A stretch of 51,815 nucleotides of DNA. It comes from Myxococcales bacterium. GTDB taxonomy: Bacteria; Myxococcota_A; Polyangia; Fen-1088. The notes below the pieces were generated by a model. It had not been told where the DNA came from and did no database searches. It saw only the letters and a list, made by a program, of their open reading frames with translations. Made by a program: the position numbers and the translations under genes. Positions 29,416-33,930 of the stretch are shown here, piece by piece (the stretch's first letter is position 1; each line of letters starts with the position of its first letter). The stretch covers positions 1 to 51,815 of the forward strand of contig PMBS01000358.1 in NCBI GenBank assembly GCA_003153015.1, given 5' to 3'.

Positions 29416-31815
29416 ATGAGCAGCAAGAGCAAGGTGCTTTCGAATCCCTACGGCTACTTCGATACCGAGACGCGCGAATACGTCATCACCCGGCCCGACA
29501 CGCCCACGCCTTGGTTCAACTACCTGGGCGAGGGTCGCTACGGCGGCATCATCTCGAACGCGGGAGGCGGTTTTTCCTTTGATCGCGATCCCAAGAACCG
29601 CCGGGTTTCCCGCTACCGCTACAACGCCATCCCCATGGACCAGCCGGGCCGCTATGTCTACATCCGCGACATGGAGAGCGGAAAGTTCTGGAGCCCGACC
29701 TGGCAACCCACGCCCGGCGTGAAACTGTCGTCCTACGAATGCCGCCACGGCGCGGGCTACACCTGCATCGCCAGCACCCACAACGGCATCACCGCCAGCC
29801 TGCTTTGCTTCGTTCCGCCCGCGCCCAAAGACGAATCCTGCTCTTGTGAATTGTGGGTTTTCAACATCAAGAACACCGGCAAGAAGCCGCGCAAGCTGCG
29901 CACGTTTTCCTATATTGAGTTCAGCTTCAGCGACGCGCTCGGCGACCAGCTCAACCTCGACTGGTGCCAGCACATCCTGGAGGCCAGGGTCACAGACGGA
30001 ATCATCACCTCCAAGACGCGCTTCGCGCCGACTACCAATTTCTTCGGTTCCAGTGTCAAGCCGGCTGGCTTTGATACCGACCGGGAAGTATTTGTCGGCC
30101 GCTGGCGGGATCTGTCGAACCCCGAGGTGGTCGAGCGGGGCAAGCCCAGCAACATCGAAGCGCCCCGTGGCAACAACATCGGGTCGCTCTGCCACAATGT
30201 GACCCTGGACCCCGGACAGGAAAAGGAAATCGTCTTTGTCATGGGCGTGACCGACGAGCCGGCGCGGATTCCCGCGGTGGTGGCGCGTTTCACCAAGCCC
30301 CACAACGTGGTCGCCGCGTTCGCGGACTTGCGCGCCGATTGGGACGCCTACCTGGGGCGCTTCACGGTCGACACGCCCGACCCGGTCGTCAATGCGATGT
30401 TGAACGTCTGGAATCCCATCCAGTGTCGCACCACACTCTTCTGGTCGCGCTTTGTTTCCGCGTACGAAACCGGCACGGGCCGAGGCATGGGGACGCGCGA
30501 TTCGGCGCAAGACACCCTGGGCACTGTGCACAACGCCCCTGACCGCGCGCGGGCGACGCTCAGTATGCTCTGGCATCTGCAATATCAGGATGGACACACC
30601 TGGCACCAGGTGCTGCCCCTGACCGGCGAGGGCGGCCCGGGACTCGCCGCTGAGTTTCCGGCCTGGCCACAGTGGTTCTGTGACGATCACTTGTGGTTGA
30701 TTCTCGGTGTGTGCGCGTATTTGCGCGAGACCGGCGATCTCGCCTATCTCGACGAAAAGATCGACTACACCGATGGCGGCAGCGACAGCGTATGGAACCA
30801 CATGCTGCGCGCGATAGACTTCACCCTGCAGCACCGCGGTCCCCAGGGGCTGCCACGCATGGGTTTTTCCGATTGGGACGACACCATGAACGTGGACCAT
30901 GGCAGTGGCAAGGCCGAGAGCGTGTGGTGCGGGCAACAATTCTGCCGGGCCCTGCTCGATCTGGCCGAGCTGTCGGATCATTTGCACAATGCCGACGAGG
31001 CAAAACGCTTTCGTGCCCTGCATGCGGAGATGGCGGCCATCATTAATAAGGTGGCATGGGACGGCGACTGGTACGCGCGCGCCTTTGACGACGAAGGCAA
31101 GCCGATCGGGGTGAAGAGCGAGACTCACCAACGGATCGCGCTCAACACGCAAACCTGGGCGGTGATCGGCGAAGCGGCGCCAGTCGAGCGCGGCCGGCGC
31201 GCCATGGAACAGGCGCACGAGAAGCTCAACAGCAAGTTTGGACTGGCCCTGTTGTGGCCGTCTTATACCGAGGGCGACCAGCGCGTGCGCGGAACCACCA
31301 CCTATCCGCCCGGGGCCAAAGAAAATGGCGGCATCTTCTGTCACGCCAACACCTGGGCCATTGTGGCTGCAGCCAAGCTCGGCATGGCGGAACGGGCGAT
31401 GCAGTACTACCTGCAGATTACACCTTTCATGCGCCGGGATGTCGACGTCATGAAGGTCGAGCCCTATGTCTACTGTGGCAACGTCACTGGCCCTGAGCAC
31501 AAGCAATACGGCTATGCCCGCAACGCGTGGCTATCCGGCACGGCATCGTGGACCTATGTCGCCGGGACCCAGTGGATCCTCGGCATCCGACCGACCTATG
31601 CCGGGTTGATGATCGCACCGGTCATTCCCGAAAAGTGGAAGGGCTTCAAAGCCACGCGCCTCTATCGGGGAGTGCGCTACCTGATTGAGGTCAAGCGCAC
31701 CGGCAAGGGCTCAGGCGTCCAACTCACCGTCGACGGGCACACCATCGCTGGCAGCGTGATTCCCTTGCCAGCCGCGGGAACCAAGGAGGTCAAGGTCGAG
31801 GTGAAGTTGGGCTGA
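29416..31815 (+). CDS. GH94 disaccharide phosphorylase (cellobiose-phosphorylase-like)
   Basis: A 799-residue inverting phosphorylase that splits a beta-linked disaccharide with phosphate, yielding a sugar-1-phosphate. The N-terminal beta-sandwich starts NPYGYFDTETREYVITRPDTP. The catalytic (alpha/alpha)6 barrel contains GTRDSAQDTLG and LPRMGFSDWDDTMNVD, where Asp486 aligns with the GH94 general acid. KVEPYVYCGNV and SGTASWTYVAG near the C-terminus complete the pattern. No signal peptide, so it acts in the cytoplasm on sugar brought in by the adjacent GPH symporter. The family includes cellobiose, chitobiose, cellodextrin and cellobionate phosphorylases; DWDD instead of the common DWND means I do not fix the substrate. 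Confidence 0.92.
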   Translation: MSSKSKVLSNPYGYFDTETREYVITRPDTPTPWFNYLGEGRYGGIISNAGGGFSFDRDPKNRRVSRYRYNAIPMDQPGRYVYIRDMESGKFWSPTWQPTPGVKLSSYECRHGAGYTCIASTHNGITASLLCFVPPAPKDESCSCELWVFNIKNTGKKPRKLRTFSYIEFSFSDALGDQLNLDWCQHILEARVTDGIITSKTRFAPTTNFFGSSVKPAGFDTDREVFVGRWRDLSNPEVVERGKPSNIEAPRGNNIGSLCHNVTLDPGQEKEIVFVMGVTDEPARIPAVVARFTKPHNVVAAFADLRADWDAYLGRFTVDTPDPVVNAMLNVWNPIQCRTTLFWSRFVSAYETGTGRGMGTRDSAQDTLGTVHNAPDRARATLSMLWHLQYQDGHTWHQVLPLTGEGGPGLAAEFPAWPQWFCDDHLWLILGVCAYLRETGDLAYLDEKIDYTDGGSDSVWNHMLRAIDFTLQHRGPQGLPRMGFSDWDDTMNVDHGSGKAESVWCGQQFCRALLDLAELSDHLHNADEAKRFRALHAEMAAIINKVAWDGDWYARAFDDEGKPIGVKSETHQRIALNTQTWAVIGEAAPVERGRRAMEQAHEKLNSKFGLALLWPSYTEGDQRVRGTTTYPPGAKENGGIFCHANTWAIVAAAKLGMAERAMQYYLQITPFMRRDVDVMKVEPYVYCGNVTGPEHKQYGYARNAWLSGTASWTYVAGTQWILGIRPTYAGLMIAPVIPEKWKGFKATRLYRGVRYLIEVKRTGKGSGVQLTVDGHTIAGSVIPLPAAGTKEVKVEVKLG

Positions 31816-31826
31816 GGACGTTCAGG

Positions 31827-32354
31827 CTACGGCATGGTGCAGGTGATGGAAGTCGTGTCCCCATAGCACCCCGCTCCTTCGCTCCGAGGGCAAACGCACT
31901 CGCAGGCATCGCTGCAACCGGCTCCCAAGTCCTCGCAAGACGGAGGCCCCTGAGAGACGCCGACAGCGCCCGGAATCCACTGAACGCACACCTGGCCAGT
32001 GTGGCACGTCTGCGTGCCGCAACCCCACTCCGCAGGGCCGTCCTGCGTGGCTAGGGCGTCTTTGAGGGTCGCGTCGAGCGTAGTTCCCGCCGCCTCCGGA
32101 GCATCTCCGACCTCGATCTCAGCGGGGCGAATATCCACGGTCGCATCAGGTGTGACAAACAGACCATCTGCGGAAGCCATGGGGGCAAGGTCTGGGATGG
32201 TATCGAGGCTGGGGGCGTTCGGGAGGTCAGCGACCACCGAGGGGCCGTCCGGGATTCCCACATCCTTGTTGCTGCTGCTGCTGCCGCAGCCCACGAGCAG
32301 AAGCGAGGTAGCAAGGAGCACCAAAACAAAAGGAATCTGAGCCAGTCTAGTCAT
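31827..32354 (-). CDS. Cys-rich lipoprotein, unknown
   Basis: A 175-residue lipoprotein with lipobox LLLVGCGSSSS. An acidic, Pro/Asp-rich linker follows, then a C-terminal module with about ten Cys (EWGCGTQTCHTGQVCVQW, CSDACECVCPRSEGAGCYGD). The Cys pattern resembles the small disulphide-rich domains common on surface proteins of myxobacteria. The ATG at 32354 has GGAG 8 bases upstream; an earlier opening at 32480 is unsupported. Function unknown. Confidence 0.78.
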   Translation of the reverse strand: MTRLAQIPFVLVLLATSLLLVGCGSSSSNKDVGIPDGPSVVADLPNAPSLDTIPDLAPMASADGLFVTPDATVDIRPAEIEVGDAPEAAGTTLDATLKDALATQDGPAEWGCGTQTCHTGQVCVQWIPGAVGVSQGPPSCEDLGAGCSDACECVCPRSEGAGCYGDTTSITCTMP

Positions 32355-32509
32355 CTTGTTCTCCACCTCATATCCGTCGGAGACTGAGGGCGTGACAGAC
32401 AGAGATCCTACGCGGTTTCGAGGCAGAGAAGTCCAGATTCTTGCTTGACACATCGAGCCCACGGCGGGCAGCCCGTCCACGCCTCCCCACGCCGAGACTT
32501 GAAAGTAGT

Positions 32510-32528
32510 TAGTATCAGTGTGATACTA
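32510..32528. promoter_or_regulatory. Palindromic operator at the hicAB module
   Basis: TAGTATCA-GTG-TGATACTA is a perfect inverted repeat with 8-base arms, extended by AGT/ACT with one bulge. It sits directly before and over the first codons of the HicA frame. HicB antitoxins with a ribbon-helix-helix bind such repeats to repress their own operon; assignment here is inference. Confidence 0.65.
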
Positions 32529-32733
32529 CTATCCGGCGCCACGGAAACTTCGGGAACTGATTGCTGATCTCAAGCGAGCCGGTTTCGTTCAGGAGCCAGC
32601 CCGCGGGAGCCATCGCAAATTTCGCCATCCAAAAGGCGTCACCGCGGTGCTATCCGGGCACAGCGAGGGAGCGGACGCACTTCCCTACCAGGAACGCCAC
32701 GTCCACCGGGTCATCGAGGAGAGCCGCAAATGA
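32524..32733 (+). CDS. hicA: HicA-type mRNA interferase toxin, no canonical start codon
   Basis: The frame reads PRKLRELIADLKRAGFVQEP, then ARGSHRKFRHPKGVTAVLSG and ends RHVHRVIEESRK. This is the full double-stranded-RNA-binding-like fold of HicA, with the catalytic His in G-S-H. It ends at TGA 32731-32733, overlapping the hicB ATG (ATGA). A TGA at 32521-32523 closes the frame upstream, and no ATG, GTG or TTG occurs before the conserved start of the fold. Translation would need a non-standard codon (CTG 32557 or ATT 32560 would lose the N-terminus), or the gene has lost its start. HicA cleaves mRNA; the antitoxin is next door. The coordinates given are the open frame. Confidence 0.75.
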   Translation, partial: YYYPAPRKLRELIADLKRAGFVQEPARGSHRKFRHPKGVTAVLSGHSEGADALPYQERHVHRVIEESRK

Positions 32734-33092
32734 GCACGAAACATGAACGCAAAGATCAGATTCGGCGATTGTCGGTCCGCTACCCTCGCGTGATCGAGTG
32801 GAGCGAGGAAGATCGCTGCTACGTGGGCAGCGCTCCGCCCTTGGTGGGCCAGTGCTGTCACGGCACGAGCGAGGCCAAGGTGGCGGCTCAGTTGGCGGTC
32901 ATCGTGGAGGATCTGGTGCAGGACGTGATCGAGGGGAAGATGCCCGCGCCGGAGAGCCAGGCCGGCAAGAGCTACAGCGGGAAATTCGTGGTCAGGATCC
33001 CACCCGCGGTGCACAAGAAGCTGGCGTTAAAGGCGATGGCCCGTGGCGAAAGCCTGAACCAGTTCGTAGCCGAGGCCCTGGCGCACGCTTAG
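32730..33092 (+). CDS. hicB: HicB-type antitoxin with ribbon-helix-helix
   Basis: A 120-residue antitoxin. Residues of about 14-75 form the partly degraded RNase H-like HicB fold (YPRVIEWSEEDRCYVGSAPP, HGTSEAKVAAQLAVIVEDL). The C-terminus (about 80-118) is an Arc/MetJ-type ribbon-helix-helix (GKFVVRIPPAVHKKLALKAM, LNQFVAEALAHA) for DNA binding. The ATG overlaps the hicA stop. It probably binds the palindrome at 32510-32528 and neutralises HicA. Confidence 0.88.
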   Translation: MSTKHERKDQIRRLSVRYPRVIEWSEEDRCYVGSAPPLVGQCCHGTSEAKVAAQLAVIVEDLVQDVIEGKMPAPESQAGKSYSGKFVVRIPPAVHKKLALKAMARGESLNQFVAEALAHA

Positions 33093-33117
33093 GCCATCTT
33101 GATGGAGAAGACGTATT

Positions 33118-33930
33118 CTACGGCGGGCAGTCGTCGCCCTTGGTCGGGCCCAGATCCGCCCACTGGATGGGGCCGTCGGGCACGCCGAAGCGGGCGGCGG
33201 TGAAGCTCTCGATGTCGATTAGTTCGCTCGCGTTTCCCTTGTTCTGCGTGCAGCAGCCGCTGCAGTCCGAATCGGCGCATGTGTCGATTACAAGAACCAC
33301 CATGGTCTTTGACCCAGACTTCAAGCACAGATCGTGGTGCTTCAGAGTGGCGAAGTCGGGGAAAACCGAGACGATGTCGTGCGACTGGACCCAACTGAGC
33401 GGCATCACGGGGCCGCAGCCCGCGAACATGCCCTCGTACTGACAGCCGCTGTACTTGATGCACTCCTCGCTGCCAGGGTCGGGGTAGGAGGTGAATTCCG
33501 TCTTGTTGGCGGTCTTCCAGACCAAGCCCGCGGCCTCACACCGGCTGGTGGCCGTGCTGGTGGCGGTGCCGGTGCCGCCGGTACCGGTGCCGCTGCCAGT
33601 TGCGGTTTTCGATGCGGTTCCGGCATTCGTGGCCGAGCCGGTACCGGTCGCGGTCTTCGATGCCGTGCCGGTCCCCGTGGTCGAGCCGGTGTCCAGAACT
33701 GTGTACGATGCACTGCCGGTCGCTGTCATCAAGGCGGTGCTGGTCCCAGAACTGGAGACACTGGCGTCCTTGGCAGCATCGGCCGCGGGCGAGCCATCGG
33801 CAGCCCCCGCTTCCGCGATCAGCGGCGCAGCGTCGGCTACCAGGGGCTGGCTGCCCCCGCCGCAGCACGGGGTCAGCGGGATGATGAAAGTGAGGACCAC
33901 GCACGGACTCGCCAAGCGCCTTTTCAACAT
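33118..33930 (-). CDS. Lipoprotein with Ser/Thr-Gly linker and double-psi-barrel-like C-terminus
   Basis: A 270-residue lipoprotein: signal MLKRRLASPCVVLTFIIPLTPC, a long Ala/Ser/Thr/Gly linker with repeated units such as GTASKTATGTGS (about 60-125), then a Cys-rich domain (about 130-270). The domain (NKTEFTSYPDPGSEECIKY, MVVLVIDTCADSDCSGCC, ELIDIESFTAARFG) looks like a barwin/expansin-type double-psi beta-barrel, with V-x-V-x-D-T-C and an E-L-I-D strand. Such barrels bind or loosen glycans. The ATG at 33930 has GAGG about 10 bases upstream. The family call is by pattern and not certain. Confidence 0.7.
   Translation of the reverse strand: MLKRRLASPCVVLTFIIPLTPCCGGGSQPLVADAAPLIAEAGAADGSPAADAAKDASVSSSGTSTALMTATGSASYTVLDTGSTTGTGTASKTATGTGSATNAGTASKTATGSGTGTGGTGTATSTATSRCEAAGLVWKTANKTEFTSYPDPGSEECIKYSGCQYEGMFAGCGPVMPLSWVQSHDIVSVFPDFATLKHHDLCLKSGSKTMVVLVIDTCADSDCSGCCTQNKGNASELIDIESFTAARFGVPDGPIQWADLGPTKGDDCPP

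Follow-up and report, generated by a model that had tools for sequence, protein, structure and literature searches.

The locus described here raises the question of how a toxin-antitoxin operon came to carry a complete toxin frame without any usual start codon next to an intact antitoxin gene, and of what such an operon would still produce. It lies in a stretch of 51,815 nucleotides from a Myxococcales bacterium (the window, in what follows), which belongs to a metagenome assembly of 385 contigs that is 87% complete. The answer that we consider probable is a type II hicAB operon whose toxin recently lost its start through a GTG to GCG change, in which the operator, the -10 box and the start of a leaderless hicA would be packed together and from which HicB would still be made.

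The hicAB locus and the hicA start codon

The frame at 32524-32733 of the forward strand encodes a complete HicA (translation YYYPAPRKLRELIADLKRAGFVQEPARGSHRKF...), and its terminal TGA overlaps the ATG of hicB in an ATGA-type junction, with the hicB ATG at 32730 and the hicA stop at 32731-32733. An earlier note on this DNA had claimed a full HicA and an overlap with hicB; both are confirmed, the latter at 32730-32733 and the former by the Pfam HicA_toxin model (PF07927), which matched residues 10-60 of the translated frame with an E value of 2.5e-9. The AlphaFold2 model of the protein had a pLDDT of 85.4 and, in a Foldseek search, matched 1whz and the HicAB complexes 6g26 and 5yrz. The histidine of the GSH motif, which matters for the RNase activity of HicA according to passages of a published account (PMC11594946), was invariant in the nine rows of our alignment A3. 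The hicB gene (32730..33092, forward strand) encodes an antitoxin of 120 aa with a C-terminal ribbon-helix-helix (RHH) domain (PF05534 HicB, E 8.3e-16, residues 75-117; Arc-like and other ribbon-helix-helix models matched more weakly), and has its own Shine-Dalgarno sequence, GAGGAG (32716..32721, forward strand), kept in all six loci scanned. By the HicA domain, the adjoining and overlapping hicB and a palindromic operator to which HicB would bind, the locus is, as judged from its sequence, a type II HicAB module.

No usable start codon could be found for the toxin gene of this module. In-frame stops lie upstream of hicA at 32500, 32506 and 32521 and, as the earlier note had also stated, the frame holds no ATG, GTG or TTG between the last of them and the conserved N-terminus. 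When one genome from each species was scanned, nine encoded relatives were disclosed. Six of these (L007-L011 and L013) came from four Myxococcales assemblies of fen metagenomes, with two copies present in each of two assemblies, and the subfamily was present in five of the seven genomes of the genus that were examined. With the window, there were seven full-length or nearly full-length genus copies (the window, L007, L008, L009, L010, L011 and L013). The codon aligned with 32536-32538 was GTG or ATG in 18 of 19 relatives, namely GTG in 11 (all six other genus copies, L015, L087, L088, L089 and L090) and ATG in seven (L012, L014, L016, L085, L003, L086 and L083); these counts exclude L005 and L006, which have no aligned start codon, and those of L058-L079 that belong to other HicA families of the genus. 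The sole relative with neither codon at this place, L004, has instead an in-frame GTG 16 codons upstream. Only the window showed GCG there (32536..32538, forward strand) and no other start, and this GCG is one base from the GTG of the close relatives. Taken from this position, the hicA frame runs over 32536..32733 of the forward strand (65 codons plus stop), an assignment based on PF07927, the model and the fold matches. A single start-codon substitution appears to be the simplest account of the GCG.

Two other ways of accounting for the start were rejected. The loss of a base from an ATG near 32531 does not agree with the gap-free alignment of the close relatives, which places the start at 32536, and the GTG-TGA at 32518, considered as a start-stop reinitiation site, is inside the operator and upstream of the predicted start of the message. 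The HicA of L004 (G123:C16) carries a 16-codon N-terminal extension from its upstream GTG, which GAGAGG precedes. The genome of the window contains three more HicA-family genes, of other kinds (L062, L068 and L077, in G000:C147, C381 and C353).

Operator, promoter boxes and probable leaderless reading of hicA

The perfect palindrome described by the earlier note, TAGTATCA-GTG-TGATACTA, was found at 32510..32528 of the forward strand, and by its position and its conservation in relatives it is the putative HicB operator. It does not cover the first codons, as had been thought, since the relatives put the start at 32536-32538. No such palindrome arose by chance in 100 shuffles of the window, even with up to three mismatches allowed. 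With up to two mismatches, seven sites were present in six of the eight genomes examined, at hicA copies only, and the reversed-pattern control yielded no site in the same eight genomes. The operator was identical in L007, L008, L010 and L013 and differed at a single base in L009 and L015, and the distant L016 kept the half-sites and their position. In six loci, 7 nt separate the palindrome from the hicA start codon; in L015 and L016 the distance is 8 nt. In the distant relatives L086, L087 and L088 it becomes TGGTACC-N-GGTACCA, and L089, L083 and L090 have the right half only; these distant palindromes and right halves again end 6-8 nt before an ATG or GTG.

One promoter-like site was found in 32300-33250. 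A -35-like hexamer, TTGAAA, lies at 32499..32504 of the forward strand (one found in the promoter scan, 0.2 expected in shuffles), and its TTG is kept in six of the seven aligned relatives, with a one-base shift in L015, and absent from L016. The likely -10 box falls on the same strand in the right half of the palindrome, either as GATACT (32522-32527, 17 bp from TTGAAA) or as TACTAC (32524-32529, 19 bp). Between palindrome and start codon there is a 7-nt spacer (32529..32535, forward strand) whose length is fixed and whose sequence is not conserved: its mean pairwise identity in six loci was 0.33, versus 0.71-0.74 at third and fourfold codon sites, and it diverged more than the fourfold sites (P 4e-5, column resampling). 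The spacer is thus close to random, although the loci are roughly 85-90% identical. A special mutation process was considered for it and dismissed, saturation being enough, since beyond about -58 upstream the intergenic DNA of L013 cannot be aligned at all with that of the window.

Of 18 loci, 13 have a TACYA motif whose end falls 6-8 nt ahead of the hicA start (6 nt in one, 7 nt in eight and 8 nt in four), and any other distance was seen in at most one locus; six of the positive loci come from one genus and are therefore not independent. The box is missing from L003 and L014 and stands at different distances in L012 and L085 (this positional scan omitted L011 and L004 and counted duplicate records of one locus once). 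None of 20 hicA starts had a Shine-Dalgarno word at -16..-4. The combination by which a leaderless gene is recognized, a -10-like box at promoter distance and no Shine-Dalgarno sequence, was therefore present, and the window fits the spacing, with GCG as its codon. Because the right half-site is as far from the start codon as a -10 box would be, a leaderless hicA message is predicted, and we believe that hicA in the window operon is probably leaderless; L003, L014, L012 and L085, with the box missing or displaced, count against this. The exact point at which transcription would start is uncertain, since with GATACT it would fall some 2 nt ahead of the codon, and TACTAC implies a -35 spacer of 19 bp. 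A literature search on leaderless hicA, with most subscription journals outside its scope, found no paper.

The geometry was also searched independently, by scanning 317 genomes of the class with the pattern GGTACC-N4-8-GGTACCA-N6-9-RTG. It occurred at 21 places in 20 genomes, and six of the 21 codons begin a HicA frame as judged by profile A3. Three of the six (L103, L104 and L105) are the known loci L088, L086 and L087, which were not used to build A3; the other three (L092, L102 and L108) are new loci whose HicA bears little similarity to that of the window, L092 and L108 passing the Pfam cut-off and L102 missing it. A control with a spacer of 16-19 gave 16 places in 15 genomes and no HicA start, the scan covering the 12 of its 18 candidate starts that had at least 25 residues. 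In viral contigs, the TGG version of the pattern matched 113 stretches, and in seven of them (L117, L120, L121, L130, L148, L221 and L222, nearly one family) a small protein begins at that place, with a weak HicA match below the Pfam cut-off (E 0.021, for one member and its first 60 residues). The majority of the pattern matches, in class genomes and viral contigs alike, were not HicA. In L130 and L222 the next protein looked HicB-like by eye, with an RHH end, and the viral HicA-like family (L117, L130, L148 and L222) displays the operator, -10 and start arrangement in its GGTACC form. L081, of another family, has ATGCC 7 nt past a similar palindrome and was taken as a chance match, as no HicA frame was seen by eye. 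Plasmid and phage collections contained distant HicA only (three records each), and there was no plasmid DNA match.

From these recurrences we put forward, tentatively and with more doubt than conviction, a wider proposal: in several distant hicAB groups the start codon may form a fixed unit with the -10 box and the half-site of the operator, so that the toxin would come from leaderless messages only and the antitoxin from an ordinary ribosome site. How much toxin is made per antitoxin would then depend on the efficiency of leaderless translation in the cell, and the window would be a natural start-codon knock-out of such a unit. The loss of a start is in itself ordinary; the fusion of operator, -10 box and start codon, recurring in other hicAB groups, would matter more.

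Decay and selection in the genus copies

Apart from the start, the window HicA differs from the consensus of its close relatives in one residue. Its comparison with the hicA of L007 gave a dN of 0.021 and a dS of 0.347, and among L007-L010 six codons after the start were private to the window, five of them by synonymous change, the probability of at most one replacement among six codons under neutrality being 0.005-0.011. These figures indicate that purifying selection acts on hicA and that the gene was selected for most of the window branch. Since the frame is undecayed and selected, the start change would be recent, or a population variant or consensus error, or harmless.

The hicB gene was open in all seven full-length genus copies. 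In L013 (PMKP01000313.1), which has both flanks in common with the window, hicA is frameshifted from locus position 1513 and hicB is intact. In L011 (PMIX01000140.1), the operator and the -35 box are absent upstream of 1501, and the comparison of its hicA codons with those of L010, in the same genome, showed five replacement and no synonymous differences, as expected of a toxin gene out of use. With the window, the toxin gene is apparently unreadable or promoterless in three of the seven genus copies, and assembly faults could have contributed to each of the three. The suggestion of the earlier note that the toxin had been silenced and the antitoxin kept is supported by the comparison of the start region, in which frame and operator are the same, GTG is found in the genus copies and L015, GCG is found here only, and hicB is intact. 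The genome of L013 carries an intact hicA copy elsewhere (L007).

The hicAB units of the window (32485-33100), L007, L009, L010 and L013 stand among differently mixed flanks. L007 and L009 have only the upstream flank in common, the downstream flank is common to L007, L011, L013 and the window, and in L010 the unit joins, at about -53, a cut-off copy of the gene located at 29416-31815 in the window. The unit looks mobile or often recombined.

Proposed operation, alternatives and known systems

In the explanation that we favour, the -10 box, formed by the right half of the palindrome, would lie within the HicB operator and close against the start codon of hicA, and transcription would begin at this codon or no more than 2-3 nt away. 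HicB would bind the palindrome, block the -10 box and repress its own operon. In the intact relatives, HicA would come from the leaderless GTG or ATG, and HicB from the internal ribosome site. With GCG in its place, the window would be left with HicB and little or no HicA; because hicB has its own ribosome site, the promoter would still yield HicB. If the change is real, this would be an antitoxin-only hicAB caught early, with a toxin frame as yet undecayed, and the related copy that also lacks the toxin at the same locus would offer a natural comparison for the role of the kept antitoxin. Were hicA leaderless by design, the toxin and the antitoxin encoded on one message would differ in their mode of initiation, which would explain an excess of antitoxin in a toxin-first operon without a second promoter, and the DNA pattern would locate some hicAB operons and show at which codon they truly start.

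Everything said about the start hangs on one base of a fragmented metagenome assembly, and this base could be a consensus error, or a minority or strain variant fixed by the assembler, in a living population with an intact GTG-started hicA. The GTG of all six other genus copies, together with a frame otherwise undecayed and five of six private changes synonymous, agrees with such a reading. We nevertheless consider it unlikely, as the substitution would have had to strike one of the few bases whose change destroys the only start, in an hicA frame and an adjoining hicB otherwise intact and without indels, and as L013, at the same locus, lost its hicA through a different change. Much less probable still is that a non-standard start, either GCG at a leaderless 5' end or a later codon, goes on giving HicA at a very low dose. 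The HicA frame kept on the window's own branch would fit this; however, the frame from the stop at 32521 to GCG contains no CTG, ATT, ATC or ATA, and the first candidates downstream, CTG 32557 and ATT 32560, were rejected as starts because they lie inside the first helix of the model and vary among relatives (CTA in L009, ATC in L008). GCG is not known to serve bacteria usefully as an initiation codon.

A further alternative bears on the leaderless part only and is compatible with the start loss in the window. The promoter could serve the antitoxin alone, like P2 of Escherichia coli, the hicA of the intact relatives being read from a longer message that begins at an unseen promoter upstream. 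We regard this as rather unlikely, though it has a precedent in E. coli hicAB and suits a message that begins at the start codon or later. On a longer message, hicA would still be without a Shine-Dalgarno word, as the operator half-site occupies its place, and upstream of about -58 the loci with different flanks share no sequence, so that no common upstream promoter is visible.

In the parts of two articles that deal with E. coli (PMC10865869, PMC11594946), P1 of hicAB serves both genes, and the message from the HicB-repressed P2 yields HicB only. The output of P2 resembles the antitoxin-only output proposed for the window, which would be reached by another route: E. coli has a second promoter for HicA, whereas none is recognizable in the window. 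Moreover, E. coli HicB has an HTH domain, in contrast with the RHH domain of the window HicB. RHH-type hicAB operons, such as that of Burkholderia pseudomallei, resemble the window in having the toxin gene first, a C-terminal RHH domain on HicB and a palindrome over the predicted -10, and they also share with it the fold match to 6g26. Passages of PMC11594946 describe reviewed HicB proteins that block their own promoter, with one palindrome overlapping a predicted -10. Unlike RHH-type hicAB, the window has its right half-site 7 nt before the hicA start, no Shine-Dalgarno sequence for this gene and GCG as the codon.

The window also resembles degraded toxin-antitoxin loci with a solitary antitoxin, in that the toxin is unreadable and the antitoxin intact; in contrast to them, its toxin frame is full length and undecayed, and the start codon alone is different. 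Solitary hicB genes are reported in a portion of PMC10865869. Among the genus relatives, solitary C-terminal RHH fragments of the window-type HicB were observed at two places (L050, G388:C136:79166-79378, and L056, G386:C142:1525-1638).
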